Positions 6,027 to 61,750 are shown, counted from the first letter of the stretch. The stretch is DNA of 64,000 bases from Methanomassiliicoccaceae archaeon COG_1 (GCA_028561875.1 JAQQTI010000001.1:558001-622000); one strand, 5' to 3'. The notes: generated from the letters alone by a model not told the origin. A program made the numbers and translations.

Positions 6027-9001
<2,975 letters not shown>

Positions 9002-18256: not shown

Positions 18257-18526
18257 TTCCAACCTCCCCTCTCCCCGATTGCACGCGGAATGATCGCGGA
18301 CGGCGATCGACCGAATCGTGCCTGGCGCGAATGCCGAAAACATCCCGCCTGCATATCGCCGTGTCGGATGCCGTTCGCGAACTCCGCAGTTGAGACCGAG
18401 TGGCGTGTTGGAAATCTCTAACAAAAAAGATACCGATTTCAGAGGGGACTGGTTTCGGAAAAAGCCGCGCGCCTCCGCCGCCAGATTCGCACGGCGGAGG
18501 CGTTTGGGAAGAGGTTTCAGAACGGC

Positions 18527-21803: not shown

Positions 21804-21840
21804 GGCGCCCGGCCGGGGCGCCCCCCGGCACCGGGGGCGC
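21804..21840. terminator. GC-rich hairpin between convergent alaS and methyltransferase genes
   Basis: The bases 21806-21841 contain self-complementary GGCGCC and GGGGCGCC/CCCCGG blocks (gcgcccggccggggcgcc and ggcaccgggggcgcc). They can fold into a strong stem on either strand, which may separate the two convergent transcripts. No T-run follows, so termination is only a suggestion. Confidence 0.3.
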
Positions 21841-23015
21841 CTGCCCTCGACGACGGAACTCAGCATGTCGAGGATCGCCCGGACCCTCTCCGGCTCGTAG
21901 AGGCTGTACAGCGCTTCCTTGCCGTTTTTCTCCGAGTACACGATGCCCGCGTCCCTCAGGACCCTCAGGTCGTGCGACGCGAGGGAGTGGGAGCACCCGG
22001 CCACGTGGGCGATCTGCTGCACCGTGAGGCGGCCGACGGTCAGGGCCTTGATCATGCGGATGCGTTTCTCATCGGCGAGGGACTTCACAGCGGCCAGGAG
22101 GTCGCCCCCCACGTCCGCCACGCCCCTGAGGTCGGCTATGCTCTCGCAGCCCAGTATCGGATTGGACGGGGGCCCGTCGTACGGGCTCGAGGGGTCGTCC
22201 GGCTTCCTCGCGCAGACGATGAAGCGGGACGGCAGCTCGACGAACCCGTGTTCGGTGAGGACGGAGTACGGGTTCTCGTCGAGGGACTGCACGTGGACGT
22301 CCGTCATCCCCGCCCCCAGGAACAGCGACACGTCCCACGCGGGACGGCGGCGCCTGCTGCACGGGAGGCCCCTCGCCAGGTCGCGCATGATGTTGAAATC
22401 GACCCCGTCGGTGTTGGTTTTCGCGTGGAGCCCGTCGTTCATTCCGTGCCCGTTGAGGTCCATGTAGGCCTTCCTCCTCCCGTACTCCTCGTCGAATATG
22501 TCGAGGTAGTAGTTGCCGTCGATGACGACCACGGCCCCGCCCGGCGCGAGGAGCTCCTTCCATCCGCCGTAAGCCGAGGCGGGGTCGGTGAGGTTCCACA
22601 CGGTGTTGTTCGACACTATCAGGTCGGCGCTGCGCCTCCTCAGCGGGGGGCTCTGGACGTCCCCCCTGACGAACTCGGCCTCGGCGCCGAAGGCCTGGCA
22701 GTTCTCGCGCGCGGCCTCTAGCATGCGCTCGTTGTTGTCTATGCCGATCACCCGGTGTCCCCTGAGGGCGAAGAGTATCGCGTAGAGGCCGGCGCCCGTC
22801 CCCATGTCGACGACGGTCATGCGCCGGCCCAGGTTGACGAACCGGTCGATGATCCTCATGACCTCGCCGTACCCGCCCCCGATGCTCTGGCGGGTGGCCT
22901 CGCCGTACCCGTTGGCGCGGAGGCTCCAGTAATCGCATATCCTCGATTCGAGGGCCTTCCTGGCACCGGCGGTGCGCGGCTCTTCGTCTTCCGGAACGGC
23001 TGTGGCCGCGGCCAT
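21840..23015 (-). CDS. SAM-dependent methyltransferase fused to C-terminal ArsR-type HTH domain (no stop at expected end)
   Basis: About 392 recognisable residues. Residues 20-290 are a class I methyltransferase: VVDMGTGAGLYAILFALRGH with the SAM-binding glycines, VIGIDNNERMLEAAREN, and ADLIVSNNTVWNL. Residues about 305-392 are an ArsR-type winged helix (LADEKRIRMIKALTVGRLTVQQ; then GCSHSLASHDLRVLRDAGIV). HTH after methyltransferase is the reverse of the common order. The frame has no stop where the domain ends (about 21840) and stays open antisense to alaS until 19773; a one-base shift would end it at 21775. A TATA element at 23036-23046 suggests a leaderless start. It is divergent from the ABC operon, 128 bp away, and may regulate it. 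Confidence 0.72.
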
Positions 23016-23104: not shown

Positions 23105-23147
23105 AGGAGGGGATCAACTGGAGCATATGTCCAATTTGATACCATGA
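23105..23147 (+). promoter_or_regulatory. Six-codon upstream ORF overlapping the binding-protein start
   Basis: ATG at 23127 opens a six-codon frame (MSNLIP) whose TGA at 23145-23147 overlaps the binding-protein ATG at 23144 as ATGA. GGAG lies 4 nt before the small ORF, while the main ATG has no site of its own. A TATA-like ATTTATACG lies at 23084-23092. This looks like translational coupling or a leader peptide. Confidence 0.35.
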
Positions 23148-24520
23148 ACCCGAAAGCAATGGCAATCGTGGCCGTGGCGGCGCTGGTCGCCGCCGGGGCG
23201 GCGGCAATCGTCGTGTTCGGCGACGGCGACGGCAAGAGGACCGCCGATCCCGGCGACAACCTGGACGGCCGCCTCACCGTGTTCGGAAACGCTAACGGCG
23301 ACGACTACATCGACCAGGAGGACGTGGAATGCGTCAAGCGGATCATCGCCGGGGAGAGGGAGCCGGCGTACTTCGACTGCCACAGGACCTACGGGGGCGC
23401 GACGGTCCAGAGGTCCTTCGCCGATGCCAACTGCGACGGGAAGATCGACCGGGCCGACGTCGCCTGGATCCAGGACATGGTCGACCGCAAGCCTGACATG
23501 CTGATTCACTTCTACGACGTGGACGGCGTCATCTCCTCGTGCACGTACCCCCTCACGACCTACGCCGTCGGGTACAAGAGCAACTACGAGGCCGAGCTGA
23601 TCCTCGGGAACGAGAACAACTGCATGTACGTATGCAACCAGGTCGGGCAGGACGGCCCCTACTCGCCCTGGTACCGGATGTTCCTAGGAAGCGACAATTA
23701 CGTCGGCTGCTTCGGCAGCAGGTTCACCCCTGACTACGAGGTTTTCAGCAAGAACGCGCCCAGCTACATGCTGTCCGGGACCCGGGCCTGGTTCGACGAG
23801 AACATGGAGGAGACCGTGGCGGCGCTTGGCATGGACGTCGTCCGCCTCCCCTTCTGGGAGGACAACTGGGCGATCCCCGCGATCATCACCCTGGGGTACC
23901 TGACCCAGCGCGAGTCCGAGGCGTACCGGTACGCCGAGACCGCCGACTCCGTGTATGGGGCGATATCCGGCGCTCTCGCCGGCACCCCTGTGTCCGAGAG
24001 GGTGTTCGTTTACGCCTCGTACAACGCCACCAGCATATCGGCCAAGCACAACGGCATGAACGAGCTCGTCACGCTCGCCGGGGGCAGGAACCCGCTCGAC
24101 GCCGGATACTCGCCCGGGAAGATCGACGCGGAGACGCTCGCCCTTACGATGAACCCCGACTGGATCGTCCTCGACCAGTACTTCGGGTTCCTCGAGAGGT
24201 ACGAGGGGTTCGACCCCTGCAAGAAGGCCATCGTCGACCAGCTGAGCAACACCGACATGAAGTACGTCCAAGCGATCAGGATGACGGACGCCTACAAGAG
24301 CGGCCGCGTGATCTTCCTCCAGCAGGGAGTCTACATGGGCCCGGCGAGCTACGTCGCCGCGGCATACATCGCCAATCACATCAACCCCGGGCTGTTCGGC
24401 TTCGACGTCGACGGGCTGTTCGGCGACTACGTCACGAGATACCACCCGGATTACTCCAGCGCGGATTTCCTGGGGCTAGAATATTTCGATCTGGCGAGGT
24501 ATGAGGAGTACGCGTCTTGA
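23144..24520 (+). CDS. ABC transporter substrate-binding protein (BtuF/FepB type) with N-terminal dockerin domain
   Basis: 458 residues. A signal-anchor helix (residues 6-25) is followed by a type I dockerin-like domain: two calcium-binding loops, NANGDDYIDQED (49-60) and DANCDGKIDRAD (94-105), each followed by a helix. Residues about 120-458 form a helical-backbone binding protein of the iron-siderophore/cobalamin/heme class (PBP family TroA-like). No lipobox is obvious. It heads an operon with a permease and an ATPase. Dockerins bind cohesin domains, so the binding protein may dock onto a partner at the surface. The ligand is unknown; corrinoid is attractive in a methylotrophic methanogen, but iron or other chelates fit equally. 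Confidence 0.82.
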   Translation: MNPKAMAIVAVAALVAAGAAAIVVFGDGDGKRTADPGDNLDGRLTVFGNANGDDYIDQEDVECVKRIIAGEREPAYFDCHRTYGGATVQRSFADANCDGKIDRADVAWIQDMVDRKPDMLIHFYDVDGVISSCTYPLTTYAVGYKSNYEAELILGNENNCMYVCNQVGQDGPYSPWYRMFLGSDNYVGCFGSRFTPDYEVFSKNAPSYMLSGTRAWFDENMEETVAALGMDVVRLPFWEDNWAIPAIITLGYLTQRESEAYRYAETADSVYGAISGALAGTPVSERVFVYASYNATSISAKHNGMNELVTLAGGRNPLDAGYSPGKIDAETLALTMNPDWIVLDQYFGFLERYEGFDPCKKAIVDQLSNTDMKYVQAIRMTDAYKSGRVIFLQQGVYMGPASYVAAAYIANHINPGLFGFDVDGLFGDYVTRYHPDYSSADFLGLEYFDLARYEEYAS

Positions 24521-24564
24521 ACCGGCGGGGGCTCTGGCACGGAGGAACCACCGAGGAGGGGCCG

Positions 24565-25638
24565 GTGTCGGAGGAAGGGGCTGCCTGCGAGCGGATGGCG
24601 TCCTCGTACAGGCGCTACGTGGCGAGGAAGCTGGTCTTCATCGCGCTCTGCATCGCCGGCGCGATCGCGGTGACCGGGTACGCGGCGACATACGGGTCCT
24701 CGGGGATCACCCCCGGGGAGGTGTACCGCGACATATGGTACCACATCGTCGATCCGAGCAGGTGCGACGAGACCGTCGATTGGGCGGTGTTCACCGTCCG
24801 CCTGCCGCGCATAATGACGGGGCTCGCCACGGGCATGTCCCTCGGCGTCGCCGGGGCGGCGATGCAGAGCATGATGAAGAATCCTCTGGCCGACCCGTAC
24901 ACGACGGGCATTTCCTCGGGGGCCTCGTTCGGGGCGACCCTGGCGCTGGGACTCGGGTTCACCGTGACGGGCGCCGGGGGCACGCCCGGGCTGGTGTCGA
25001 CCGCCTTCGTATTCTCCCTGATACCCGCCGCGGTGATCATACTGGTATCCTCGCTGAAGAACGCCTCCGCGGCGACGATGATCCTCGCAGGCATCGCGGT
25101 GATGTACCTGTTCAACGCGTGCACGACTCTCATCAAACTCACGCTGTCCGAGCAGAGCCTTTCCGCCGTCTACCAATGGACCGTCGGCGACCTGAGCGGC
25201 TCCACGTGGGAGTCGTTCTACGTCATCCTCGGGTTCACGATCGCCGGGACCGCCCTCCTCATGGCGATGTCCAAGAAGCTTAACATTCTGATCACCGGGG
25301 ACAGGAACGCGAAGGCGCTCGGGCTCGACGCCCACCGGCTCAGGGTAGCCCTGCTCCTGCTCATCTCGCTCATGGCGGCATCGGTCGTATGCTTCACCGG
25401 GATCATCGGGTTCGTCGGGCTGGTGGCGCCGCACATAGTGAGGGTCTTCCTCGGAGCGGACAACCGGTACCTGATCCCCGCCTCGGCGGCGTTCGGCGCC
25501 GTCCTCCTGATGTCGGCCGACCTGGTCTCGAGGGTCGTCATAGCGCCGACCTTCCTGCCCGTGGGGGTGATAACGTCGTTCATCGGATGCCCGCTGTTCC
25601 TGTACCTGCTCATCAGGCAGAGGAGCTCGGCGTGGTGA
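24565..25638 (+). CDS. ABC transporter permease, BtuC/FecCD family
   Basis: 357 residues from the GTG at 24565, chosen because GAGGAGGGG lies 5 nt upstream. A TTG at 24517 overlapping the previous stop and an ATG at 24595 are alternatives. About ten membrane helices are predicted by eye. FecCD-family motifs are clear: RLPRIMTGLATGMSLGVAGA, QSMMKNPLADPYTTGISSGA, the helix GFVGLVAPHIVR near the ATPase-coupling region, and SADLVSRVV. It works with the dockerin-tagged binding protein upstream and the ATPase starting 4 nt downstream. Confidence 0.9.
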   Translation: MSEEGAACERMASSYRRYVARKLVFIALCIAGAIAVTGYAATYGSSGITPGEVYRDIWYHIVDPSRCDETVDWAVFTVRLPRIMTGLATGMSLGVAGAAMQSMMKNPLADPYTTGISSGASFGATLALGLGFTVTGAGGTPGLVSTAFVFSLIPAAVIILVSSLKNASAATMILAGIAVMYLFNACTTLIKLTLSEQSLSAVYQWTVGDLSGSTWESFYVILGFTIAGTALLMAMSKKLNILITGDRNAKALGLDAHRLRVALLLLISLMAASVVCFTGIIGFVGLVAPHIVRVFLGADNRYLIPASAAFGAVLLMSADLVSRVVIAPTFLPVGVITSFIGCPLFLYLLIRQRSSAW

Positions 25639-25642
25639 TCGG

Positions 25643-26521
25643 ATGAGGGTCGAACTGCGCGGCATGGAATTCCGGTACGGCCCCCGGATGCCGGTCATCA
25701 GGGGCATATCGTTCACGCTGGACAAGCCGGAGTTCGTATGCATCATGGGCCCCAACGGCGTCGGGAAATCGACCATGATACACTGCATCAACAAGATCCT
25801 CAGGCCCACGGGCGGGACCGTATTGGTGAACGACGTGGATGTGACCCGGACCAAGCTCAGGGACCTCGCGTCCCGTTTGGGATACGTGCCCGCGTCGAGC
25901 GAGGACTCGTACCCCCTGACAGTGGTCGACACGATCATGGTCGGGCTGCAGAACGACTTCAAGTACGGCACGTCGAAGGAGGACCTGCAGAAGGTATACG
26001 ACGTCCTCAGGCTAATGAAGATCGAGCACCTCGCCATGAGAAACTTCAACGAGCTCTCCGCCGGGCAACACCAGAAGGTGGTGCTCGCGAGGGGCCTGGT
26101 GAGGTCCCCGGAGGTAGTCCTGTTGGACGAGCCCACGTCAAACCTCGACATCAAGCACCAGCTGGAGGTCACCAAGGTGCTCAGCCGCCTCCCGAAAGAG
26201 AAGGGCATGCTGGTGATCATGATCAGCCACGACATCAACATCACCGCGAAGTACGCCGATAGAATCATCATGCTGCACGACGGCGAGATATTCGCCATCG
26301 GGACGCCGAAGGAGGTCCTGACGAGGGAGAACATCCGCGCGGTGTACGGCGTCGACGCCGACATCATGGAGGTGAACGGACGCCCGCACGTCATCCTCAA
26401 CGACTCCGTCGAAGACGGTATCGCCGCCGACCTCAACGGGCGGCGGCGAGGTCGGGATTCGAGAATGGGCGTCCTGCCAGGACCCGCATGTTCGAGCCCG
26501 TCCGCATCGGATACGACATGA
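25643..26521 (+). CDS. ABC transporter ATP-binding protein, BtuD/FecE family
   Basis: 292 residues; hydrolyses ATP to drive the preceding permease. Motifs: Walker A GPNGVGKST (about residues 36-44), signature LSAGQHQKVVLARGL, Walker B VVLLDEPTSNLD and switch His in MISHDINIT. The last 35 residues after VILNDS are Arg-rich and not conserved-looking. Last gene of the operon 23144-26521. Confidence 0.92.
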   Translation: MRVELRGMEFRYGPRMPVIRGISFTLDKPEFVCIMGPNGVGKSTMIHCINKILRPTGGTVLVNDVDVTRTKLRDLASRLGYVPASSEDSYPLTVVDTIMVGLQNDFKYGTSKEDLQKVYDVLRLMKIEHLAMRNFNELSAGQHQKVVLARGLVRSPEVVLLDEPTSNLDIKHQLEVTKVLSRLPKEKGMLVIMISHDINITAKYADRIIMLHDGEIFAIGTPKEVLTRENIRAVYGVDADIMEVNGRPHVILNDSVEDGIAADLNGRRRGRDSRMGVLPGPACSSPSASDTT

Positions 26522-27118: not shown

Positions 27119-30100
27119 TCAACGCACCCTCATCTTCCTCCACAGCGAGACGGCGAATATCGCGCAGAACATTATCACCAGCCCGACCTCCACCGTCACG
27201 AGCAGGGTCTGGTCCTTCTGATGCTCCGGCTCCGTGATGGGCCGCACGTTGTATTGGGCCCAGGATGAAAGAACGTCATCCGAGGCGTATATCGTGAAGG
27301 CGTCAACATCCACATCGGTGAACGCATTGTCGAACGATTCGAAATAATCGCAGTGGACCTCCAGTTCCGAAATCCCCTTGCAGTTGCCGAAGGCCCCGTT
27401 GCCTAACAGTCTCATGTTTTCCCCCAGCACTATGAATTCCATCACGGGGATGCCCTCGGAGACATAGAACGCGTATTCGCCTACGGACACCACGTTGTTA
27501 AGGTCCGCATACCGGAGTCCCGCGCAGTTGTAGAACGCCCTCTCCCCGATGGTTCCTACCCCGGCCGGAATGTTCAATTCCGTAAGTCTGGAACAGCCCC
27601 CGAAACAATCCGCGGGTATTGAGGCCAGCCCCTTGCCCAGAACAACGTTGGATAGGCTGGTACACCCATGGAACGCACCGCTGCCGACGGCCCTGACCGA
27701 GTTCGGGACGGCGAAACGCGTGAATGCTTTCCCGTCGCACCCGGAAAATGCGCCGCACCCTATGAACACCAGTTCGCCGGAGAATGAGATGCTGGAAAGC
27801 GACCTGCATTCCGCGAAGGCCCGGTCCCATACGTATGCCACGGAGTCGGCCAGATACAGGCTGGACAGAACGGAACCGTGGAAGGCGCTTGTCTGAATCC
27901 CCCTGATGTGGCCGTTGAGCTCCAACGTTCCGAGAGCGTACGGGTCCGCGAACGCGAGCGCGTACCTGTCCTTGATCCCCGGGTCCCTGGAGAACATGAA
28001 TGCCGCATCCCCGATCTGGGTCACGGGATATGATGTTCCCCCGACCGATACCGAGCCGGGAACCTGCACGTACGGCCCGGAGACGTACCTGTGGATGACG
28101 GCCTCGTCGTCCACTACGTAGTAGGTGAAGCAGAAGGTGTCCTTGCGGTAGGACCCGTTGTACTCGTGAAGGACCAGATCGTCGCTGCCTGCAGACCAGC
28201 CGGCCGCGTCGGGGCGATGGTGCACCCCGACCCCCGCGGGGGCCACGCCTTCGAACACCGGGGAATCCCCCAGGAAATAAACGTTCTTAATCCCGGTGTT
28301 GGACCAGATGAGCCAGGAGAAGTATTTCACCGTCACGGGGATCACCGCGCTTGTCGCGTTGACGACTCCGTTCAACGCCCCCGCATCCATCTTGTAAAGG
28401 GTGCATCCTCCGAAGGACGAGGGGACGAACAGGGTCCCGCCCATGTTGTCCAAGGTCATCGATACCAGCGTAGCGCTGCCATCGATCCCGGACCCCTCGG
28501 TCGTGTATTCGGCATCCCCGTACGGACAGGTCACGATCTGCCTGACCGACACGTCGTCGGTGGTCCCGACCGCGTAAAACTTCATCAGGTCCGTGCTGAA
28601 CCTCACGTATCTTCCGTCATACGACGGTTCTATATGGGTCGTAGACCCCGCGGGAGATATGTTCCAAACATCGGCATGCACGCCTTTTCCCAATTCCAGA
28701 AGCAGAGCGATGTCGGCCGTGACCCCCCGGGGCTTCAGGTCCATCACGGAGGCCCCGTCCACGCGGAGATTGAGGCGGTAGAATTTGCTGTAGTTGATCT
28801 TCTTCAGAGCGGAAGAGATTTTCACGTTGAGGGGACCGTTCTGGACCGAAAATGTCAGCTCATCGCCGTCCCCGATGACCGCCAGCATCGAGGACAGGCT
28901 CGCATAGAACGAACCGCGGGGGACCGTCAGGACCGCTTCGGCGTCGCCGCCGTGGACGGCGATCAGGTTGGCGATGGACTCCCTACCGACGGATATCGCA
29001 GTGGCGTCGGGATACTGTGACAGGTCGCATACGACGACCGTCCCATCATACTTAGCTGCATTATGTGCCAGTTCCTCCGTGAACGATACGGTTACGGTAT
29101 CCCCCGACATGTTGTTCTCGGCATCGCGTACCGCATCGTAATCGCCTGTCACCCTCGAGACGTATACCGTGGTGTCCCCGACCACGATGTAGTTGGTGTC
29201 ATATTCCTTGGCGAGGGAGGGGTCGCGGTACATCTTCGCCAGGGCGGACCCGCGGAACACGTCCAGAGGAAGCGTCCCCCCTATGGAAGACCCGTATTTT
29301 GCAGAATAGGTGCCGACCGTGCGGTCCCCCTCCTTGAGAGTGAGTAGGTATTCCCTTGCCTCGGGTTCGAAGTACGCGTAGGCATAGGTCGTTCCGGTTA
29401 TGTTCCCGAGGTCGACCCGGACGTAATTGTTGGGCGTGAGGCTCCACCCTCTGAAATTGTACTGATACCTTACCGTCGGTTCTCTGTATGGGGTCGGAGG
29501 CGTCACGGCCGCAGACCCGTATCCCGCGGACACCGTGTCGATGGGGGAACGGTCGTAGTTGAAGAACTTCACGTCGTAGGAACGTACGACCTGGGTGAAC
29601 ACCGGCCTTGTCTCGGTGTCTTCCGTGACCGATTCCAGGTCCTTGTCCCAGCGTTCGAATACGTAGTCGTACTGCTGTGTGCTCACCTTGCTCGGTATGC
29701 CCGAATACGTCGCCGCGGAACCGGGCACCACGTACTCCTTCCTTATGAACTGTCCGCTTTCGGTGAGATACGTGATGCACTTCATCCCGGGGGTGATGTC
29801 GACGAATGACGCGGTGAACGTGGTGTCCGAGGTTATCGCGCGGGTCGTGTCCCCCCATCCGACGAACCCCTTGCCCGCGGCGACAGGCTCCTCTATTTCG
29901 GTCATGTCGACCTGTTCGCCGTATTTCACCTTCTGCGATTTCCAAACGGTCCCGTTCCCCAGTTTGAAGTCCACCGTGAGTATGTTCTTCATGCAGACTA
30001 TCTCGTCGGTATCCGGATTGGGCTCCGGGCCCCCCTTGTCGATGATGTACCCGTCGCCATACGGGTCGGGCGTGGAGATCAGATATATGCACTCGATGTA

Positions 30101-30916
30101 CGGATACACGGCGGGATCGTAATATCCCAGGGTCCAGTCATTGAACGACCACCGGTGGTCGACCCAGCAGAACTGGTTCCAAAACGCCCACACGCTGTCC
30201 CCGAGATGGTCGTTCTTCAGACCGAACATGACGTTGATCCAATCTGCCACGTCGGTCCCCGCCCCGGCATTCCCGGTATAGGTCTCGATCTCCCCCGGCC
30301 AGTTGGCCTCTATCGCGTTACGGAGAACGGCGCCCATGCTGGAGCCCTCCCCCCTGATCCAGAATCCCCTTTCCCTTATCTCGGAAGTGAACACCCCCCT
30401 CACGTGCTCGTTATCCGGGGAGTAACCGTTGGCGAACCTGATGAAGATGTATCCCGTGGATACGGGTTCGAAGTCGGGCACGGAGTAGACGTTGGTGCCA
30501 TTGAGGTTGGACAGTTTGGAGAGGGTGACGCAGTATGTGGTGCCCGGCATCATCTTGCCGTCGGACGAAGCGTTGAACGCCTGTACGCCCCAGCCGGAGT
30601 TCCCCGCCGGAAGCCATTGGAACACCCTCCAATACTGGCCGTCCCCCGGGGTGCGCCCGTCCACCGACAGTATGCCGGTCCTCGTCGGGTTCAACTCCAT
30701 TTCGCGGTGCTGGTCCGACAGCGCCTTGACTATGGCGCCCCTGACGGTCTGCACGCCGTCCACGGTCGACTTGGTATACGTTCCGTCCGGGTCGAGGATG
30801 TACACGTTCACGTTATCGCATATTGCCGCAGAGGACTCGCCAGAGTCGTCGACCGAGATCAGAGCGGCTGCCGCCACTATCGCAAAGGATGACAGTACCA
30901 GCAATGACCTTCTCAT
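27119..30916 (-). CDS. Surface protein with DUF4430-like, InlB-type and LRR_5 repeats, C-terminally anchored
   Basis: 1,265 residues. Signal peptide MRRSLLVLSSFAIVAAAALI; two DUF4430/transcobalamin-like segments, about residues 32-150 (TVRGAIVKAL, YWRVFQWLPAGNSGW) and 160-290 (DVADWINVMFGLKND, VWAFWNQF, WSFNDWTLGYYDP); InlB-type repeats about 310-540 (GKGFVGWGDTT; YQYNFRGWSLTPNN); BspA-like LRR_5 units about 965-1205 (GSGAFHGCTSLSNVVLGKG; GERAFYNCAGLRYADL); and one C-terminal membrane helix with WRKMRVR. Starts 4 nt after the ATPase stop, so it is the last gene of the 43.2-27.1 kb co-directional run. Its place in a transporter operon suggests a surface receptor or ligand-trapping role. Confidence 0.8.
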   Translation of the reverse strand: MRRSLLVLSSFAIVAAAALISVDDSGESSAAICDNVNVYILDPDGTYTKSTVDGVQTVRGAIVKALSDQHREMELNPTRTGILSVDGRTPGDGQYWRVFQWLPAGNSGWGVQAFNASSDGKMMPGTTYCVTLSKLSNLNGTNVYSVPDFEPVSTGYIFIRFANGYSPDNEHVRGVFTSEIRERGFWIRGEGSSMGAVLRNAIEANWPGEIETYTGNAGAGTDVADWINVMFGLKNDHLGDSVWAFWNQFCWVDHRWSFNDWTLGYYDPAVYPYIECIYLISTPDPYGDGYIIDKGGPEPNPDTDEIVCMKNILTVDFKLGNGTVWKSQKVKYGEQVDMTEIEEPVAAGKGFVGWGDTTRAITSDTTFTASFVDITPGMKCITYLTESGQFIRKEYVVPGSAATYSGIPSKVSTQQYDYVFERWDKDLESVTEDTETRPVFTQVVRSYDVKFFNYDRSPIDTVSAGYGSAAVTPPTPYREPTVRYQYNFRGWSLTPNNYVRVDLGNITGTTYAYAYFEPEAREYLLTLKEGDRTVGTYSAKYGSSIGGTLPLDVFRGSALAKMYRDPSLAKEYDTNYIVVGDTTVYVSRVTGDYDAVRDAENNMSGDTVTVSFTEELAHNAAKYDGTVVVCDLSQYPDATAISVGRESIANLIAVHGGDAEAVLTVPRGSFYASLSSMLAVIGDGDELTFSVQNGPLNVKISSALKKINYSKFYRLNLRVDGASVMDLKPRGVTADIALLLELGKGVHADVWNISPAGSTTHIEPSYDGRYVRFSTDLMKFYAVGTTDDVSVRQIVTCPYGDAEYTTEGSGIDGSATLVSMTLDNMGGTLFVPSSFGGCTLYKMDAGALNGVVNATSAVIPVTVKYFSWLIWSNTGIKNVYFLGDSPVFEGVAPAGVGVHHRPDAAGWSAGSDDLVLHEYNGSYRKDTFCFTYYVVDDEAVIHRYVSGPYVQVPGSVSVGGTSYPVTQIGDAAFMFSRDPGIKDRYALAFADPYALGTLELNGHIRGIQTSAFHGSVLSSLYLADSVAYVWDRAFAECRSLSSISFSGELVFIGCGAFSGCDGKAFTRFAVPNSVRAVGSGAFHGCTSLSNVVLGKGLASIPADCFGGCSRLTELNIPAGVGTIGERAFYNCAGLRYADLNNVVSVGEYAFYVSEGIPVMEFIVLGENMRLLGNGAFGNCKGISELEVHCDYFESFDNAFTDVDVDAFTIYASDDVLSSWAQYNVRPITEPEHQKDQTLLVTVEVGLVIMFCAIFAVSLWRKMRVR

Positions 30917-30920
30917 GGTA

Positions 30921-31754
30921 TCACTTGATGTACCTCTTGGGCAGTACGTATATCTCTCCGTCGACGTCGAGGCCGACGCGCGCGTCCACTTCGTAGACCT
31001 CCCTTATCAGCTCCTCGGTGATCACCTTCTTGGGGTCCCCAATGGTTACGATGCCTCCCCGTTTCATGATGATGCAGACGTCGCAGTACCTTGCCATGAG
31101 GGAGATGTCGTGCTCGGCCACCAGAACGGTCATGTCCTTGCGGGCCACGTTCTGGAGGTATTCCATCACCTCCAGTTTGTATTTCATGTCGAGATGGGAC
31201 GTGGGTTCGTCGACGAGCATGAGTTTCGGTTCCTGGACATAGGCTTTGGCGATGAGGGCGCGCTGTCTCTCCCCTGACGAGCAGAGCGCTACCGATTTCC
31301 TTCTGAGATGATCGATGCCGAACGTTCTCAGCGCCTCGCGCACGACCCTTTCGTCCTCGGGCGATTCCCACCAGACCCTGTTGACGAAGGGATACCTCCC
31401 CAGCATCACGAACTCCATGACCGTGGAGCCGAAAAGCGGCCCGGATTCCGCAGGTACGCTGGCCACCATCTTGGCGAGGTCCTTGGTTCCGAAGCAGGCC
31501 GTGTCCCGGCCGTCCAGGAGGATTCTTCCCGTCCATTTCGTGTGCATCTTGGAGATGCAATTCATCATGGTCGACTTGCCGCACCCGTTGGGCCCGATGA
31601 GGCCCACGAGAAGGCCCTTGAGAAGGGAGAAGTCGACGTGGTGCAGGGCCTCGAAGCCGTCGAAGTTTATGCACAGGTCTTCCACCCTCAACAGCTCTTC
31701 CCCCGTTGGGCCGCCGACGGAGTTCCGGACGTTGGCCAAGGATTCATCCGTCAT
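30921..31754 (-). CDS. ABC transporter ATP-binding protein, BtuD/FecE family
   Basis: 277 residues. Walker A GPNGCGKST, Walker B LMLVDEPTSHLD and switch His in VAEHDISLM are canonical. The ABC signature reads LCSSGERQRALIAKA, with Ser-Ser-Gly-Glu instead of Ser-Gly-Gly-Gln. The gene overlaps the fused permease gene by 11 nt and is followed after 4 nt by the large surface protein. The second BtuD/FecE-like ATPase in the window, clearly different in sequence from the one at 25.6 kb. Confidence 0.92.
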   Translation of the reverse strand: MTDESLANVRNSVGGPTGEELLRVEDLCINFDGFEALHHVDFSLLKGLLVGLIGPNGCGKSTMMNCISKMHTKWTGRILLDGRDTACFGTKDLAKMVASVPAESGPLFGSTVMEFVMLGRYPFVNRVWWESPEDERVVREALRTFGIDHLRRKSVALCSSGERQRALIAKAYVQEPKLMLVDEPTSHLDMKYKLEVMEYLQNVARKDMTVLVAEHDISLMARYCDVCIIMKRGGIVTIGDPKKVITEELIREVYEVDARVGLDVDGEIYVLPKRYIK

Positions 31755-34700
31755 AGTCGCGCCCCCTTCTGACGAGCATGTATGCGAACACCGGGGTGCC
31801 TATCAGCGCCGTCACCGCGCCCACGGGGATCTCCAGCGGGGCGATCACCACCCTTGCCACGAGGTCCGCGAACAGCATCAGGCAGGCCCCCAGGACCATC
31901 GATGCGGGCATTATGAGGCGGTGGTCGCCCCCCATCAGCATGCGGCACGCGTGCGGTATCACCAGCCCGACGAACCCGATGACCCCGACGAACGCGACGC
32001 AGACCGAGGTGAGTATGGAGGCGACGACCATGGTCTCGGCCTTGAACAGCCTGACGTTCAAACCTAGCTGCCTTGCCTGGTCCTCCCCGCTCATGAAGAG
32101 GTTGAACTCCCTGGCCCAAAGCATCGAGATGAACGAGATCGCCAAGGCCGGAATGAGCACCAGGAACGCGTTCTCCCAGGTGATGTTCGCGAAGGACCCG
32201 TAAAGCCACCACATGACGTTGGTAAGGTTGTCCTTCTCCAGGGAAAGGAAGATCGTCTGGACCGAGGTGAACGCGAAACCGACGATGGTCCCGGCAAGGA
32301 TGTAGTTGGTGGCGGAACCGCCCGCGCTTTCGGCCACCGTAAGCGTTATGCCGAAGGCGATGAGGCCCCCTACGATGGCCGCGACCGGGATTATGTAGTT
32401 GCTGTAATCGCTGAGCGCCGACATGGAGACGCCCATCACGACGATGGTGATGGCGAAGCACCCCGCACCGGAGGACACGCCGGTGATGTAGGGGTCCACC
32501 AAGGGATTCCTGATGAGCGCCTGGAACATACACCCTGCGATCGCAAGCCCCGCCCCGACCCCTATGGCGGCTATCGTCCTGGGAAGACGGGACTGGAAGA
32601 TGTACAGTTCCGCTGTGTCGAGGCCGTGCCCGCCCTTGCCTATCGCGGATGCGAGGGAGGCCAGGGCATCGCTGATGGGGATGATCCCCCCCGAAGAGAT
32701 GGATATGGAAACGGAGAACATCACCGCGCAGATGAAAACGCCCACCAGAAGGATGATGAGGAAACGTCTGCGCTTTATCGAGATCTCGCTCCCATCGTCA
32801 TCGTCCGGGACCATGTCGTCCCTCATCCCGTCGTACCCTTTCCTGAGCGTATCGAAAAAACCCCTGAGCGGGCCTCTCCCCCCGGGCGCGGGCCTGCCCC
32901 GCGATGCGGGCGCCGCCCGATCTGCCTGCCCGCCGGCACTAGTGTTTCCCGACGGCTCGTCTTCCTCGTTCATGCGTTCGCTTCCTCTAATGTCCCGACC
33001 TCGGCGTCTGTACGCGTACACCGCCACCGCCAAAACGGCTAACACCATGGCTGCGGTGGCAATCCATGACAGATGTGCCAGACCTTCGGATTCGTAATCA
33101 ATCTCGGAACTGCCGGAACGTTCACTCCCCGATTTTTCGGATATGACGTAGACCGCCCCGTAGTCGTTCCCGACCAGCACCTTGCCGTCAACCACGGTGG
33201 GGGAGCACATGCTGTAGGCGTTCCCGCTGTAGGGTGACACCTTGCACTTCCAGACGACGACGCCCGTATCCGCGTCGAGACACCAGACGTTGCCCCCGTT
33301 GGCATCCTCGGTGCCCGGGGAGTAATCCATGCTGTAGACCCTCCCTCCGCAGTAGGTGGTGCCGCCCGTGGAGAGCGCGTCCGTCTGCCTGCACCACAGC
33401 ATGCTGCCGTCCGACACCCACATTGAAAGGTATCCGCTCACCAGCTCCACATCCCGGCCGGAAACCGAGTCCCTGACCCTCTGGTCCGGGAGGGCGGAGA
33501 CGTACGAATAGAACCTGTCCCCGGACACCACGGGCCTCCCGCACCTGATGTCCTGTTTCCAGATCACGGAGCCGTCCGACACGCTGACCAGCATGATGCC
33601 TCCGCCCGCGGAGCTCATCTCGCCGCCGGAGTAGCACACCAGCGCCCTTCCCCCGGGGCACAGGGTGATGGAGGTCGCCTGCCCCACCATGTTCCCATGC
33701 GAATCCGTGACCTTCTGGTCCCAGATCCCCGTTCCCGTAAGGGCGTCCACGCAGACCAGCCCGCCGCCATAGTTCCCTATCATGACGCATTTCTTCCCCC
33801 CCTGGTCGCAGATCACGGGCGGATGGTAGTAGAAGCACCCCCTTATCTGACGGCCCGGGTCATCGGATGCCCAGCCCGGCACGTAATTCCAGATCTCCTT
33901 GAATCCCTTCTCGCGGTCCACGGAGAAACACCTCAGGAGACCGTCCGAGGTGCCGAAGTACAGGGCGCCGGAATCGTAGACTGCGTTCGTTATCCCACCC
34001 TCCGAATGTATCCTGTCTTTGGATACCGACGGGTCGGCCTTCCTGGGGATGTACGTGGTAAGCTTGGAGCCCTTGCACATGTCGCCGTCGTCGCCGGAGG
34101 GGGCGAGCTCCGCCAGCGCCTCGCCGGTGAAACGGTCGAGACAATATATGTGCCAGTTACCCGAGGTCACGACTATCATGTTGCCGATGATGACCGGCGT
34201 GGTTATCTCGATCCTGTCCGGCCCCGAATACGTGACGGACCACAGCAGCTCCCTGTTGACGGGGTCGAGGCAGTTGATCCTCGCCAGGGAGTCCATCCCC
34301 ACCGCGCCGAACTTTCCGGAGACGGTATGGTAGATCATGCCGTCGGAATAAAGGACGGAGGCATCGACGGCACCGACGTACGTGTTGGCCCATTCCAGCG
34401 GCGTGGCGACCTTCTCCGGCCCGCGGGACATGCTCACCCCTGAGGAGGAGGAATCCCCGCGGTAGGAGGTCCATACCTCCCTGTAGTCGGGATTCGGGGC
34501 GGGGATTACCGTATCGTTGGGGAAATACCCCAAAGCCACCGAACCGCCGACGTACCTGTCGGTCACGTCGGTCGTGAGGAACTCCCATTCCACCGTGTTC
34601 CACGAATACACGCGCCAGTGGCAGGCCTGCCTGTTGACGCCGGTGCCGACCGTCACCTCCGAGACCCCGTCCACCGAGAGGACCGTCCTCTCTTCCCCCC

Positions 34701-34923
34701 TGTCCCCGAACGCGACACGCGTCCCTAACGTGGCGGAGAGCATGGCCCCGACCGTGTTCCCGGGAACGATGTCCTTCCACTCGGTGTGCCCGTTGCCGAA
34801 ATCCACGAGGAGGGCGTCGGCGGCCTCTTCCGACGGGCCCTCGGCAGAGGAGCCCCCGGCCGCCAGCGGCATGGAACAGACCGTCAGCAGCACGGACAGG
34901 ACGACCGTCATTCCATTTGCCAT
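31744..34923 (-). CDS. Extracellular DUF4430-like/beta-propeller region fused to BtuC/FecCD permease
   Basis: 1,059 residues in one uninterrupted frame. Signal peptide (1-28); DUF4430-like domain about 30-140 (TVGAMLSATLG, CHWRVYSWNTVEWEF); PQQ-type beta-propeller about 160-600 (WANTYVGAVDASVLYSDGMI; GGGLVCVDALTGTGIWDQKV; VWCLDADTGVVVWKCKV); a first membrane helix near 625-645; a charged, Pro/Gly-rich linker; then from about 720 a complete FecCD permease (QSRLPRTIAAIGVGAGLAIAG; QALIRNPLVDPYITGVSSGA; GFVGLVIPHACR; FADLVARVV). A Met at residue 651 (ATG 32971-32973) has GAGG upstream, so a separate permease from internal initiation is possible. It overlaps the binding-protein gene by 16 nt and the ATPase by 11 nt. 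Confidence 0.85.
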   Translation of the reverse strand: MANGMTVVLSVLLTVCSMPLAAGGSSAEGPSEEAADALLVDFGNGHTEWKDIVPGNTVGAMLSATLGTRVAFGDRGEERTVLSVDGVSEVTVGTGVNRQACHWRVYSWNTVEWEFLTTDVTDRYVGGSVALGYFPNDTVIPAPNPDYREVWTSYRGDSSSSGVSMSRGPEKVATPLEWANTYVGAVDASVLYSDGMIYHTVSGKFGAVGMDSLARINCLDPVNRELLWSVTYSGPDRIEITTPVIIGNMIVVTSGNWHIYCLDRFTGEALAELAPSGDDGDMCKGSKLTTYIPRKADPSVSKDRIHSEGGITNAVYDSGALYFGTSDGLLRCFSVDREKGFKEIWNYVPGWASDDPGRQIRGCFYYHPPVICDQGGKKCVMIGNYGGGLVCVDALTGTGIWDQKVTDSHGNMVGQATSITLCPGGRALVCYSGGEMSSAGGGIMLVSVSDGSVIWKQDIRCGRPVVSGDRFYSYVSALPDQRVRDSVSGRDVELVSGYLSMWVSDGSMLWCRQTDALSTGGTTYCGGRVYSMDYSPGTEDANGGNVWCLDADTGVVVWKCKVSPYSGNAYSMCSPTVVDGKVLVGNDYGAVYVISEKSGSERSGSSEIDYESEGLAHLSWIATAAMVLAVLAVAVYAYRRRGRDIRGSERMNEEDEPSGNTSAGGQADRAAPASRGRPAPGGRGPLRGFFDTLRKGYDGMRDDMVPDDDDGSEISIKRRRFLIILLVGVFICAVMFSVSISISSGGIIPISDALASLASAIGKGGHGLDTAELYIFQSRLPRTIAAIGVGAGLAIAGCMFQALIRNPLVDPYITGVSSGAGCFAITIVVMGVSMSALSDYSNYIIPVAAIVGGLIAFGITLTVAESAGGSATNYILAGTIVGFAFTSVQTIFLSLEKDNLTNVMWWLYGSFANITWENAFLVLIPALAISFISMLWAREFNLFMSGEDQARQLGLNVRLFKAETMVVASILTSVCVAFVGVIGFVGLVIPHACRMLMGGDHRLIMPASMVLGACLMLFADLVARVVIAPLEIPVGAVTALIGTPVFAYMLVRRGRDYDG

Positions 34924-36343: not shown

Positions 36344-39300
36344 TCAGGCCCTTCTTCTAATTATAATCACCGCGCCCAGCAGCACCAGGGCCGCCGCGGC
36401 GCAATCTCCATGTAGATGGTCGCGTCGCCGCCGTTCCCGGAACCGCCGTCGGAGGAGGGGCCGGGAGGTCGGGAGAGGGTCGGAGGATTCCGACTCATAA
36501 CCGATCGCGTAGATGGACAGGTGGTCGGCGGCGAAGGACACGACGCCGTCTTTGAACGTCACACCGTCGGCGTAGGTCTTCTTGCCGTAGTCCCCGATCC
36601 TCCAGACCTTCAGCGTCTTGCCTTCCTGAACCTCGATGCCGCACGACACCGATAGGACGAACCTCCCGAAGTCGTGCTGCTGCGCCTCGCCGCACGTGAG
36701 CTCGACGGAGAAGACCTTCGCATCGCCGGCCGCGGATTGCTGCTTGGGCGTCATCTTGGCGCCCGGCTCGACGGAGAACCTCACGTTGCCTTCCGCCGAG
36801 GCCAGTTTCTTCAGGGAATCGGCGTTCAGCGTGATGGTTGCCGAGCCCGTGTCCATGACCATGACTGCCCCGGCGCCCGCCGCGGCGCCGATTGCTTTGG
36901 CGCTGATGATGGTGCCTGCGTTGACCCTTATCCTGTCCACGGAGGGGTCTTTCGAGAGCGCGCCCATCAGCCCGGATATGTCGACGGTGCTGTTCTCATC
37001 CATGTCGACCACGGCCGTGCCGTTCTCGCAGACGATGCCGAAATCCGCCAGCTTGCTGTCGTATGCCATCCTGGTGGCGGAACTGACGGGTACGTCGGAG
37101 CTGCCGACGTAGTGCTCGACGGTCACGATGGAGGTGTCGTACGAAGCGTACTCCGTCCTCTCGGTGCGGGTGATGTCGATGGTCCCTGCGAGCCGGTCCT
37201 CCGTGGATTCGGTCGAGGTGACCTTGACGACCCCGTCATCCTGCCTCGCCGTGACGGTCTCGGAAAAGTATCTGGTATCTGACTTCACCGCTCCTTTCTC
37301 TTCGAACCTCTCGGACCTCTCGACGATGTCCGCTTCCTGCCCGTCCATCGTGAGTCCCCTGCGTCTCGATTCGCTGACGTTCCTCTCGGACACGACGTTT
37401 CCGAGAGAATCCTTCACTGTCTCGGTGAAGGTCATATCCACCCCGGTCTCCGATTCCTCGGTCCTCTTCACGGTGTGCACCGTGCCGCCGTCATCCGTCG
37501 TATCTTCCTTCTCGGACAGGGTTACCGTCTTGCCGCCCTCGATCGTGACCTTGGGGAGAACGGTGACGGAAATGACGTACTGCCTGCCCTCGATCTCGAC
37601 GGTGATGTCGGCGGTCTTCTCCTTCAGACCGGTCACGCTTAACGTGTTCCCGTGTCTGCTGACGGAGATCACGCTGTCGTCGGAAACCGCGAACGTGGAG
37701 GACAGGTGCTCGGGGAGTTCGATGGTTATCACGGAGTCCCTGTTCACCTGTCTCAGGGGCTCGAACCTCACGAAGTCGTCCGAAGGTTTGGCATCCATGT
37801 AGAACCACGAGCGTCCGGCCGAGTCCCTCAGCGAGCCCTTGTCGCGGAACGACGCCTTCTTGTATTCGCCGTCGAAGTAGTACCATCCCTTTTCCCCGTC
37901 CTCCGGGAGGTCCATGGAGGATGACTTCTCCAGGAGCAGGACCTGGCGGAACGTGGATTCGGTGATCCCGTTCTTGTATACGCCTGAGTACGTCCCCTTC
38001 GAGGGGTTCGTAACGAGGGCCCATGCGTTCGTGACCTCGTTCAACCCGTATATGCGATAATCCTTATCGCCGATGGAGGCGTCCCGGCCTCTTATCTCAA
38101 TGGTCGGATGGAGCTTCTTCAGTACGTCCTGGACGTTCTTGCCGCATCCCGTTTCGGACTTTGCGAATTTGCCGTCCACGGTGATGACGTTGACGCGGTA
38201 TCTGTCCGCGGGGACGTAGCAGTCGATGTATCCGCTGTCGACGTAGAACAGCGTCTCGCCGTTGGGCCCCGCGCGGATGCACTGGCTGCACCAGTCGGTA
38301 CGTGCCATTTCCAGCCTATCGCAGGACGGTTCGAGCACCCATCCGCCGTCGGTCAGAGTGTCCGTGAACACGAACAGGGCCTGGCCGGACTTGTTGTAGG
38401 GGATGAGGTAGACGTGTACCTTCCCCTCGCCCGCGTGGGCGACGTTCACCACTATGCCGCCGTGGGTCATCATGCTGGGCGTGGCACATTTCGGGATCGG
38501 CTCCCCTCCCTCCCCTATGTCGTAAGCGATCATGCATGAGCCCCTGTCGTCGGAACCCCCCAGGGTGTCCGTGCCGAGGGCCCTCACGTTCAGGTACCCT
38601 CTGCCGTTGTAGATCACGAGCCCCGAGGCTATGCCGAGGAACTCCCGCCCGCTGGGGGTCTGGATGTTCTTGAAGGAGGGTTCTTCGAAACGCCCGCCGT
38701 CGAAATCGAACCTCACCCACATCAGTGACGACCTTTTGTCCTCCAGGCCCTGTATGACCCCGTCGAAGAGGCCCGCCACGTATGCGGTCAGGTAGAAGTA
38801 TCCGTCGTAATAGGTGAGCCATCCGTCGTCCCACGGCATGCCTTCGAACCCCGTCAGCCTGCATGTCACCGATTCTTCGGTCCGAAGGTTGAATGCCGTT
38901 ATCGCCCTGTATCCGTGGGGCCCCACCACCCTGTCGGCCTCCAGGAAGAAGAACCAGTCCCCTACGAACAGGACGTTGGAGAACTGCCCGTACTGCGCCC
39001 ACACCCTGTACGGCACCGTGCTGCTGAACAGGTTCATCTTCACGTTGTTGTCCAGGTCGCGATCGTCCTCCAAGGATGTCTTGTACATCGTGTAACGTCC
39101 GCTCCCCGCCGCCTGACATCCGTAGAAGAAGCCGTCATGGTAGGTGGCGAACGTCAGGTTCGCCGGGAGGTCGTAAAGGTGGTTGAGGTCGAGATCGTAC
39201 GCCTTGTGGCCGATCGTGTCGAACAGCACCCCGTTGCCGTAGCTGAGGTAATGGTAATAATTGTCGCTGGAAGCCTGTGAGAGCACGTAGTGGACGACCG

Positions 39301-39817
39301 TTCCGCTGTCGATTTCGAGCTGGTACAGCCTTCCGCCCGCGCGCACGTACGCGTAGTCCCCGACGATGAGCGGCGTGCAGGGCATCCCCGCCCACATCCC
39401 GCCGGTCATGTTCAGGGCCCCGCTTTTGAACGACCAGGCGAGGACCAGGTCGTCCCCAGGTTCGGGAAGGCCGTCCACGTCGACAACGTTTATCAGTTCC
39501 TGCGAGGTAGAGTAGTTGCGGACCCTGACGGAGATCGAGGCCGGGCCTTCGACCGAACGTAAGGCCATCTCGCTGCCGTCCGATGCGTAATTGGCCTTAC
39601 CGGACACATCCCATGCAATGAATTCGTAGCCCCTGTTCGGAATGAACTTCAAGGTGAGTTCCTTTGTGAACTCCCCCCCGCCGTATTCCAAGCCCGTGGT
39701 TTTATCGATGAGCCTTCCGTGGCTGTAGGAGACCTCGACGGTGTTGGCCGGGCCCGCATCGGACTCCGGGGACATCTGACACAGCATGAAGCCCGTCGAG
39801 ACCAGTGCGAACACCAA
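36344..39817 (-). CDS. Surface protein with beta-propeller and Thr-rich stalk, C-terminal membrane anchor
   Basis: 1,157 residues from a TTG at 39815-39817. Reading 12 codons further back gives a classic signal peptide (RTSRKSFTAIALVFALVSTG) directly behind AAGGAGGA, but its first codon is ATA (39851-39853), so the true start is uncertain. Residues about 100-500 are a beta-propeller paralogous to that of the 2,507-residue protein (AGMPCTPLIVGDYAYVRAGG here). Residues about 780-960 form a Thr/Glu/Ser-rich beta-stalk. A membrane helix with IIIRRRA ends the protein. Codons at about 36,400-36,470 read as Arg-rich sequence, while another frame gives a Gly/Ser linker, which suggests two compensating frameshifts. 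It lies in the co-directional run that leads into the transporter genes. Confidence 0.78.
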   Translation of the reverse strand: MVFALVSTGFMLCQMSPESDAGPANTVEVSYSHGRLIDKTTGLEYGGGEFTKELTLKFIPNRGYEFIAWDVSGKANYASDGSEMALRSVEGPASISVRVRNYSTSQELINVVDVDGLPEPGDDLVLAWSFKSGALNMTGGMWAGMPCTPLIVGDYAYVRAGGRLYQLEIDSGTVVHYVLSQASSDNYYHYLSYGNGVLFDTIGHKAYDLDLNHLYDLPANLTFATYHDGFFYGCQAAGSGRYTMYKTSLEDDRDLDNNVKMNLFSSTVPYRVWAQYGQFSNVLFVGDWFFFLEADRVVGPHGYRAITAFNLRTEESVTCRLTGFEGMPWDDGWLTYYDGYFYLTAYVAGLFDGVIQGLEDKRSSLMWVRFDFDGGRFEEPSFKNIQTPSGREFLGIASGLVIYNGRGYLNVRALGTDTLGGSDDRGSCMIAYDIGEGGEPIPKCATPSMMTHGGIVVNVAHAGEGKVHVYLIPYNKSGQALFVFTDTLTDGGWVLEPSCDRLEMARTDWCSQCIRAGPNGETLFYVDSGYIDCYVPADRYRVNVITVDGKFAKSETGCGKNVQDVLKKLHPTIEIRGRDASIGDKDYRIYGLNEVTNAWALVTNPSKGTYSGVYKNGITESTFRQVLLLEKSSSMDLPEDGEKGWYYFDGEYKKASFRDKGSLRDSAGRSWFYMDAKPSDDFVRFEPLRQVNRDSVITIELPEHLSSTFAVSDDSVISVSRHGNTLSVTGLKEKTADITVEIEGRQYVISVTVLPKVTIEGGKTVTLSEKEDTTDDGGTVHTVKRTEESETGVDMTFTETVKDSLGNVVSERNVSESRRRGLTMDGQEADIVERSERFEEKGAVKSDTRYFSETVTARQDDGVVKVTSTESTEDRLAGTIDITRTERTEYASYDTSIVTVEHYVGSSDVPVSSATRMAYDSKLADFGIVCENGTAVVDMDENSTVDISGLMGALSKDPSVDRIRVNAGTIISAKAIGAAAGAGAVMVMDTGSATITLNADSLKKLASAEGNVRFSVEPGAKMTPKQQSAAGDAKVFSVELTCGEAQQHDFGRFVLSVSCGIEVQEGKTLKVWRIGDYGKKTYADGVTFKDGVVSFAADHLSIYAIGYESESSDPLPTSRPLLRRRFRERRRRDHLHGDCAAAALVLLGAVIIIRRRA

Positions 39818-39936: not shown

Positions 39937-42900
39937 TTACTGTTTGAGCCTCCTGCGGCCGAGATAGAGTCCGACGAGCATCGCGACCACAGCACCTGCG
40001 ATCGCCAGACCGAAAAGCAGGGTGTCCGAGTCATCGTCTTTGGAAGGTGCCTCCGAAGCGACCACGTACACGGAGTTGTGATCCGTCTCGAAGGTGACGC
40101 TGGCCTCCGTACTGGACACCACGTTCATCTTCACGGATCCGGACCCGTTCCAGAAGTATACGGCCGGCCCCTTCCCGTCCTCCTTGGCGTAAGGGAGGGT
40201 GACCAGAACCTTTCCGCTGTACGGGGTCCCGTCCACGGTGAGGGTGAGGTCGTACGCGTTACCCGCGATGCCTGTGCCGTTGGGGACGGGTTCGACCCTC
40301 GAGACCACGACCTTCCCGGGAAGGCCCGCGGCATCATCCATTCTGACGGCGGTGTTCCCGCCGATCCTGACCGTGATCGTCTTCGTCCCGGCGGACGGGA
40401 TGAAACCGTGCGTGTCGGGATCCGGCTCCACCTCGGCGGCTCCGTCCTCGCCGGCGATTGCCGCGACCATCCAAACCGCCCTGACGGCCACGTCGTTGGC
40501 AGGCATGGTCGCGGGGACCGCGGGATCCCACCTGATGAACACGAACCCGCCCTTGGCCGGTGCTCCGGGAACGTTTACCGCGGTGCCGTAGTCGTACCTC
40601 GCGGGAGCGATGCCCGAGCCTCCGACGGTGTCGAAGGTTATGGTGTACTGATTCACGACACTGGTCGCGGTGAACACGACATCGGCCTCGCCGATCGTGA
40701 ATCTGCCCTCGACCGGGACGACGCTTTCCGAAGCCCATGCCCCGACGGTGTAGCCGGTCTTGATGTACGCGGCGCGGACGGAAGCCTCTTTGCCGTATTC
40801 GTAGGTCTCGACGTCGCCGACGACCTCCCCGTCCACCCTGTAGGTCACGGTGTGGGTCTCGGGGGAGAAAAGCGCGTAGACCGCGGTATCCGCGTCCAAC
40901 GGGACCGTGGCATCGTACGTTTCCGAGAAACCGGGGTCCGTGAACCATCCGCCGAAGGTACTGTGCTCGGGCACGGCGGGAGGTTCGGGGGCATAGACCG
41001 AACCCCTCGGAACGGCCCTGTAGGAGGTCTCGTCCCCGACGTTGGTGGTGAGAAGCACCTGGGATTCCGAAATCAGAAACAGTTTCCCGGCGTTCGAGCC
41101 GTCCCATACGAACCTCTGGCCTTTTATCTTGTCGAGTTCGTTGTCTTTGATTTGTGTAATCCCGTCGCTGTCGTACATCTTAACGCTGTTACCCCATAAT
41201 GATTGGGGGCCGCTAAACGCACCCCCCGACAGGGACTGGGGGAACGATACATACTTCATGCCGCTCGGCAATGAGAGAGAGCCTAGAGATACTCCCTCCG
41301 GCAGCACCAATGATTGGATGTTGCTACTAGCGAAGGCACCCCCCCCGATTTCCTTGATCGAATCGGGCAGCACCACAGTCTTTACGGCCGATTTGTAAAA
41401 TGCGAATGCACCTATCTTAGAGACGTCGCCAGTGAACGTGATCTTTGATAAACCGGATTCACGGAATGCGTTCATGCCGACATCCGCATCAACGACCAGT
41501 TCGCCGGTGATGGATGCCGGACAGGCGAGCACAGTCTTCATATCCTTGGAATACAGGATACCGCCTCTCGAAGAGAAATCGGCATTGGATTCGTCTACGG
41601 TTATGCTTTTCAGGCTCTTCGGGAAAACAAAAATACTCGACGACGCAGAAAAATCCATGGACCTCACTTTTGCGGGAATGGAGATGCTTTCCAACGCGGT
41701 CCCAGAGAATGCTCCGGAACCTATCGAAGTCAGTTTCTCCCCCAGCGTGATCTCGGCGAGCGACTCGCAATAGGCAAATGCCCAAGTCCCAATGTTTTCG
41801 ACATTCGAAATTGACGACACGGATCTCAAGGACGAACATTCAAAGAACGCCGAGGCCCCGATGCTGGTCGCGCCCTTCAAATCGATCGTTTGCAGAGACT
41901 CGCAACCCCTGAACATCCTTTCTTTAATCCACGGGATGTCGTCCGGAAGTGTCACGGACCTCAAGGACGAACAGCCGTCGAATACGCCCGTGCCGCAGAC
42001 TTCTATGGAGGAGGGCAATGCCACCTCTGTTAAGGAACAGTTTTTGAATGCGTCCGCCGACAAATTTTCCAGCCCGTCAGGCAGGATTACCGAAGACAGG
42101 CTAACACATCCTTCGAAGGCGCTCCCCCCGATACCCACCAATCCGTCCGAAAGTGACAAGGTCGAAAGGTTTTTGCACCCTTTGAAAGCGGAGGAACCGA
42201 TCATCGTGGCGCCGATATTTGCCGTCATTAACGTGCCAACGTTCTCACAGAAACGGTCGGGGACGGTCCCGCCCTCCACGGTTATGGATTCCAACGGACA
42301 CCCTGAAAGGATGCCATTTCCAATCGAAGTGACACCCCCGGGGATGGTTAATTCAGTAAGTTTTGTTTTGAAAAATGCACCCTCGCCAATAGATGTGAGG
42401 CCACTAGGCAAAACCGCAGATGCCAGACTTGCATATGAAAACGCGTACTCTCCGATGGACGTGAGACCGTCGGGGAACGTCACCGTCGTAAGATGCAACG
42501 AACAGTTAAAGGCGTCATCCCCTATCTCCCCTACGGAGTCCGGGACAACGTACGAGGCTCCCGTTCTAGCCAGAGGATACCTTATCAGAACGGTCTTGTC
42601 CTTGTTGAACAAGACCCCATCGGCGTCTGAGGAATAATGCCCGTTGGATTCGTCAACGGTTATGGATGATAGGGATGTGCATCCTGAGAACACTGAGAGC
42701 CCGATATCGAACAGCCCCGGCGGAAGCCGAATCTCCGTGAGAGACGAACAGTCCATGAACGTGGAATCTCCGATCGTGGACAAGGTAGAGGGCAGGTTTA
42801 CGATATTCAAGGAGGTGCATCCGAAGAATGTTCCCTCGCCCAATCCCTCCAACCCTTCGCCCAGCGTGACTTCTGTCAGACGATCACAGGAAAGAAGGCA

Positions 42901-60280: not shown

Positions 60281-61750
<1,470 letters not shown>

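Follow-up and report, generated by a model that had tools for sequence, protein, structure and literature searches.

The receptor-permease gene and its operon

The window, i.e. the whole stretch of 64,000 nucleotides that was analyzed, comes from an organism that is an archaeon by its 16S and 23S rRNA (draft genome of 1.5 Mb, 6 contigs, 86% completeness) and whose named relatives are gut Methanomethylophilaceae of rumen, horse and termite. On the minus strand, positions 31744-34923 form one frame of 1,059 aa (P0001) with an ATG start and 0 internal stops; the plus strand across the same positions is broken by stops. The single uninterrupted frame of 1,059 codons claimed, with no strand given, in an earlier note on this DNA is thus what the locus contains. 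The protein starts with a signal peptide (residues 1-24, 34852-34923), the helix of which spans residues 4-22 in the hydropathy profile. Then come a DUF4430-like or transcobalamin-beta-like domain, the N-domain (residues 37-134, 34522-34815), and a beta-propeller of the PQQ/BamB type (approximately residues 151-603, 33115-34473), in which Pfam recognizes PQQ_2 (PF13360) at residues 443-603 (E 3.7e-17, 63.2 bits against a cut-off of 27.6). A membrane helix found by hydropathy and in the AlphaFold2 model (residues 618-636, 33016-33072), then RRRGR and a charged linker, lead to a FecCD/BtuC-type permease domain (residues 735-1052, 31768-32721). The latter matches PF01032 with 282.6 bits against a curated cut-off of 26.5 (E 4.5e-84); its PDB matches are BtuC, HmuU and FhuB, and BtuC is among its best sequence matches. 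Signal peptide, PQQ-type propeller, membrane helix and complete permease, all listed by the earlier note, were therefore recovered by Pfam and hydropathy. These domains are more than a chance reading, since homologues occur in dozens of genomes and both halves are under purifying selection (dN/dS against the nearest orthologue of 0.13 for the receptor and 0.10 for the permease).

The start of P0001 overlaps the end of the upstream gene P0002 (34908-36323, minus strand), which encodes a substrate-binding protein with a domain homologous to the receptor N-domain and a BtuF-like Peripla_BP_2 domain (PF01497, 2.9e-30), and its end overlaps the start of the ABC ATPase gene P0003 (30921-31754, minus strand; PF00005, 6.4e-27). 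Because of these overlaps the three genes most likely form a single operon. FecCD domain, Peripla_BP_2 binding protein and ABC ATPase, encoded by overlapping genes, are those of a type II FecCD ABC importer.

The operon is flanked by large surface proteins. On its downstream side lies a protein of 1,265 aa with BspA-type leucine-rich repeats (27119-30916, minus strand), a conserved neighbour also found at six related loci (L038, L039, L040, L041, L048 and L052); a List_Bact repeat is present as well, and parts of the protein close to the N-terminus resemble the receptor N-domain by eye. Upstream is a surface protein of 1,157 aa (36344-39817, minus strand), present at the same place in L038 and L039. 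The window is densely occupied by very large ORFs of the surface type, with lengths of up to 2,563 aa and all on the minus strand (10733-18424, 19773-23015, 27119-30916, 36344-39817 and 39937-43245). A second FecCD operon lies at 23144-26521 on the plus strand, in the opposite orientation to that of P0001; it encodes a permease, an ATPase and a binding protein in which a dockerin type I domain is recognized (PF00404, E 2.8e-5). The 23S (6056-8968) and 16S (60281-61750) rRNA genes, both on the minus strand, are unlinked, about 51 kb apart. No cobalamin riboswitch was matched by Rfam in the window at the gathering threshold.

Fused and split receptor-permease genes

The distribution of the fusion was analyzed in the window gene's own clade, hereafter clade A, the alignment of which served for the genome scan for relatives. 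The nearest orthologue (L038, identical to L078, from horse faeces) has a receptor 78% identical to that of the window, split from its permease: the receptor ends in YRH followed by TGA, and the permease ATG comes 27 bases later, aligned with Met651 of the window frame (32971-32973). Where the orthologue reads CAT TGA ATT, the window reads CGC CGA GGT, and the intergenic stretch is otherwise colinear. The window gene is fused because its codon 641 (33001-33003) is CGA, at the position of the TGA that ends the receptor of the orthologue; judging from this alignment, the fusion appears to be a private stop-loss. Receptor and permease are two adjacent genes, abutting or closely overlapping, in 29 of the 29 clade-A relatives possessing both, and are also split in a second copy in the window's own genome (L110). 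Apart from the window gene, fusion is seen in a single member attached to clade A, L047 (945 aa). The earlier note was thus right in placing receptor and FecCD permease in one frame, but this state is exceptional within its own clade.

At the clade-A split junctions the permease is offset from the receptor frame 12, 9 and 8 times over the three frames. Stop read-through or pyrrolysine insertion at these junctions was considered and rejected, the stops being TGA in 24 cases, TAA in 5 and never TAG, with no signature. Likewise, long receptor ORFs in L045, L081 and L084 were discarded as further fusions: they begin far upstream, over the binding-protein gene and in another frame.

The start of the former permease gene is retained in the window. 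The sequence upstream of Met651, ACATTAGAGGAAGCGAACGCATG, keeps a GAGG (32984-32987), which is a plausible Shine-Dalgarno since it matches the anti-Shine-Dalgarno CCTCC at the 3' end of the host 16S rRNA, GGATCACCTCCT. Separate translation of the permease from Met651, which the earlier note left open, is therefore still likely, this Met corresponding to the permease gene start of the orthologue. With this start and its GAGG retained, the window gene may give rise to both the fused protein and a free permease of 409 aa.

An error of one base in the assembly, the organism having the usual two genes, would account for the single-codon TGA/CGA difference from the nearest orthologue, in a draft genome (6 contigs, 86% completeness) of a species for which one genome was compared and in a clade where all other core members are split. 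The surrounding 30 bases, however, differ from the orthologue at many positions, as expected from natural divergence since dS is about 1, and no lone mismatch stands out. An error falling exactly on codon 641 would also have a much lower prior probability than the natural loss of a stop, and both L047 and the whole sister clade of clade A are fused. We consider such an error very unlikely.

In this sister clade the fusion is the rule. Its permeases are about 50% identical to that of the window, and each is part of one frame of 930-1,200 aa that also encodes a homologous receptor. When a full-length member (L064, 995 aa) was used as query, about 60 (62 on counting the matches listed) of the 147 genomes of the order gave uninterrupted receptor-to-permease frames, all but one of them belonging to the window's family, Methanomethylophilaceae; in the remaining families of the order the permease is a plain one, about 350 aa long. 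The receptor-permease fusion is hence a genuine kind of protein, standard in the sister clade of gut-methanogen species. A search for the same fusion in related genomes, which the earlier note had called for, comes out differently in the two clades: almost nothing in clade A (L047 aside), an always-fused sister clade of about 60 species, which the earlier note had not foreseen.

In a tree of 60 permeases, all receptor-associated permeases, i.e. clade A and its sister clade, are united (100/100); L047 falls next to the split clade-A members as a whole (100/99), and the permease of the window groups with its split orthologue (100/94). The simplest history would count four state changes, from an ancestral fusion through a fission basal to clade A, later than the branching of L047, to a re-fusion in the window lineage; an alternative with repeated fusion would cost only about one more change.

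Two further observations concern the sister clade. In three of its operons a second permease of the same clade, without a receptor, comes after the fused one (L057, 8566-9744; L061, 8197-9363; L075, 7619-8659), and the two could form a heterodimer with a single receptor. One fused frame (G009:C20:1474-4359) contains one in-frame TAG. These archaea are able to encode pyrrolysine, and this codon may be read through.

The receptor, its partners and the imported ligand

The structure of the N-domain was predicted by AlphaFold2 with a pLDDT of 92. Foldseek matches this model to 3u7z (probability 1.00), to haptocorrin (4kki, 0.97) and to the cyanocobalamin-bound beta domain of human transcobalamin (5np4, 0.96), with E-values of only 0.014-0.24 despite these probabilities. 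The predicted N-domain would thus have the fold of the B12-binding beta domain of transcobalamin. DUF4430 membership by sequence was rejected, no PF14478 match being found in 19 receptors or 22 N-domains, so that the DUF4430-like domain of the earlier note survives by predicted fold and not by sequence. The AlphaFold2 model of the propeller (pLDDT 88, pTM 0.87) is matched by Foldseek to BamB and YxaL, BamB and quinoprotein propellers being its closest structures. The N-domain of the binding protein P0002 is homologous to that of the receptor (hhalign probability 96, E 2.8e-9); outgroup binding proteins, with 364-381 aa instead of about 460 aa, apparently do not have it.

The same receptor also exists outside FecCD operons. 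Receptors encoded as standalone proteins, with N-domain, propeller and C-terminal helix in 546-643 aa, occur both in further families of the order and in other parts of the class. Eight such regions were read, and in five of them (L111, 7437; L112, 7473-9113; L113, 6518-8407; L114, 7658-9367; L118, 6467-8392; all minus strand) the receptor heads an operon with a protein of about 168 aa, a protein of about 290 aa and a double ABC ATPase. The first of these carries a true DUF4430 (PF14478) and the second is CbiQ-like, a T component, in the 3 cases tested for each, and the double ATPase of L112 is of the ECF type. Since it is present in both FecCD and ECF operons, the receptor seems to be a portable capture module that serves two types of importers.

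The neighbourhood of the importers gives a clue to the ligand. CobD, CbiB and CbiS (CbiZ plus CobZ), usually with CobS, CobY and CobT, adjoin 10 of the 25 sister-clade loci, and the same corrinoid-salvage block adjoins an unfused FecCD operon in both outgroup loci, from two outgroup families. CbiZ-type amidohydrolases have a role in corrinoid salvage. The sister-clade importer, located beside such genes, is most simply a corrinoid importer, which we regard as well supported and highly probable. Corrinoid genes are absent beside all 34 clade-A loci, whose neighbours are often large surface proteins. The window's genome does contain a region with CbiB, CbiZ and CobS that shares Trm5 with a sister-clade locus, with no importer there, an arrangement compatible with the proposal that clade-A importers serve these enzymes. 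In this region (L109, 5324-8747 on the minus strand and 10735-13535 on the plus strand) the neighbours of CbiB, CbiZ and CobS are a fusion gene of the NifH-NifD type and a second nitrogenase-like gene. An argument from corrinoid auxotrophy was dropped, the genome having CbiC.

On these grounds P0002, P0001 and P0003 probably constitute a BtuFCD-like type II FecCD ABC importer of gut methanogens (Methanomethylophilaceae) with a membrane-tethered corrinoid-capture receptor. With the membrane topology that we infer for P0001, the receptor (N-domain and propeller, one membrane helix beside the permease) would capture the ligand outside and hand it to the membrane-anchored binding protein, this order of hand-over being the presumed one; the loaded binding protein would then dock on the permease dimer, and the ATPase would drive import by ATP. 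The ligand-collecting structure that the earlier note had envisaged on the transporter fits both the importer operon and the predicted fold of the N-domain. For the window's own copy a corrinoid substrate is probable by inference; its substrate may differ because clade A has no corrinoid neighbours and the host has about 20 other FecCD permeases, some near cbiC.

The family includes importers of heme, siderophores and other iron or tetrapyrrole chelates, and clade A might import one of these, only its sister clade being devoted to corrinoids. Besides the missing link of clade A to corrinoid genes, the best single PDB sequence match of P0002 is 4m7o, an iron-binding protein, although BtuF is among its best sequence and model matches. 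Counting against the corrinoid reading itself, together with the Foldseek E-values of the N-domain and the lack of a riboswitch match, NCBIfam equivalog cut-offs are not reached by the permease (217.9 bits for BtuC against 334) or by P0002 (73.7 for BtuF against 234), nor is the curated corrinoid-ATPase cut-off reached by the ATPase of the window operon. Against an iron or tetrapyrrole ligand, the tree joins clade A to the corrinoid-linked clade as its sister (100/100 for their union), and the two have in common the receptor, the operon order and the extension of the binding protein; B12 carriers have the fold predicted for the N-domain, and the CbiB, CbiZ and CobS region of the host resembles the sister-clade locus without its importer. 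We hold an iron or tetrapyrrole ligand to be doubtful, though worth keeping in mind. That the propeller is instead a BamB-like scaffold for assembly or adhesion which binds no ligand, the transporter being a mere anchor, would agree with its closest structures and with the large surface adhesins next to it. The receptor, however, accompanies importers, here in a FecCD operon and elsewhere in an ECF operon with a true DUF4430 protein, and these archaea are not known to have an outer-membrane BAM machine; such a scaffold is accordingly quite improbable, and the capture receptor remains our preferred reading.

Comparison with known systems

The window operon shares with BtuCDF of E. coli (PDB 2qi9, 4fi3) a FecCD permease, a Peripla_BP_2 binding protein and an ABC ATPase, but its permease carries or partners an extracellular receptor of 620 aa, and its binding protein is extended by an N-domain, with a hydrophobic segment at the N-terminus. 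In GlnPQ-type ABC importers (PMC8025302) extracellular ligand-handling domains are also covalently attached to the permease; there the fused part is the substrate-binding protein, whereas the window keeps a separate binding protein and the fused part is an additional receptor. The beta domain of transcobalamin, haptocorrin and intrinsic factor (DUF4430 fold) is like the predicted fold of the N-domain; unlike these carriers, the receptor has no detectable PF14478 membership by sequence and the other half of the carrier is absent.

In the same order, a 2024 genome survey reported an expansion of BtuC in Methanomassiliicoccales, with five BtuC clades, and btuFCD beside adhesin-like proteins, with which the frequent surface-protein neighbours of clade-A loci agree; its tree used 281 aligned permease positions, and its text does not mention a propeller or a fusion (PMC10804542). 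In a survey of archaeal fusions ABC transporters are the largest group, without FecCD or BtuC (PMC11237513). We found no description of the receptor-FecCD permease architecture in the literature outside subscription papers.

We tentatively put forward, at slightly less than an even chance, that gut methanogens evolved a covalent corrinoid-capture head on a BtuC permease independently of the BtuG of gut Bacteroides, the head being a transcobalamin-beta-like domain plus a propeller, also used with ECF importers, and its gene having been fused, split and re-fused. Methyl-reducing methanogens rely on corrinoid methyltransferases, and B12 is strongly contested in the gut. A receptor dedicated to capture on the permease, if true, would reveal a means by which these archaea compete with Bacteroides, whose surface propeller serves the same end, and would make the five BtuC clades known from the order easier to interpret. 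The natural series of solo, fused, split and re-fused forms would lend itself to studying why an importer gains a covalent receptor.

BtuG is a seven-bladed propeller lipoprotein which binds B12 and acts as a lid on the outer-membrane TonB transporter BtuB (PMC6143338, PMC10404256). We propose the receptor as a functional analogue of BtuG, homology not being claimed: both would be surface beta-propellers beside a B12 transporter in gut microbes, but the window propeller is BamB/PQQ-like, has a C-terminal membrane helix and is tied to an archaeal ABC permease.
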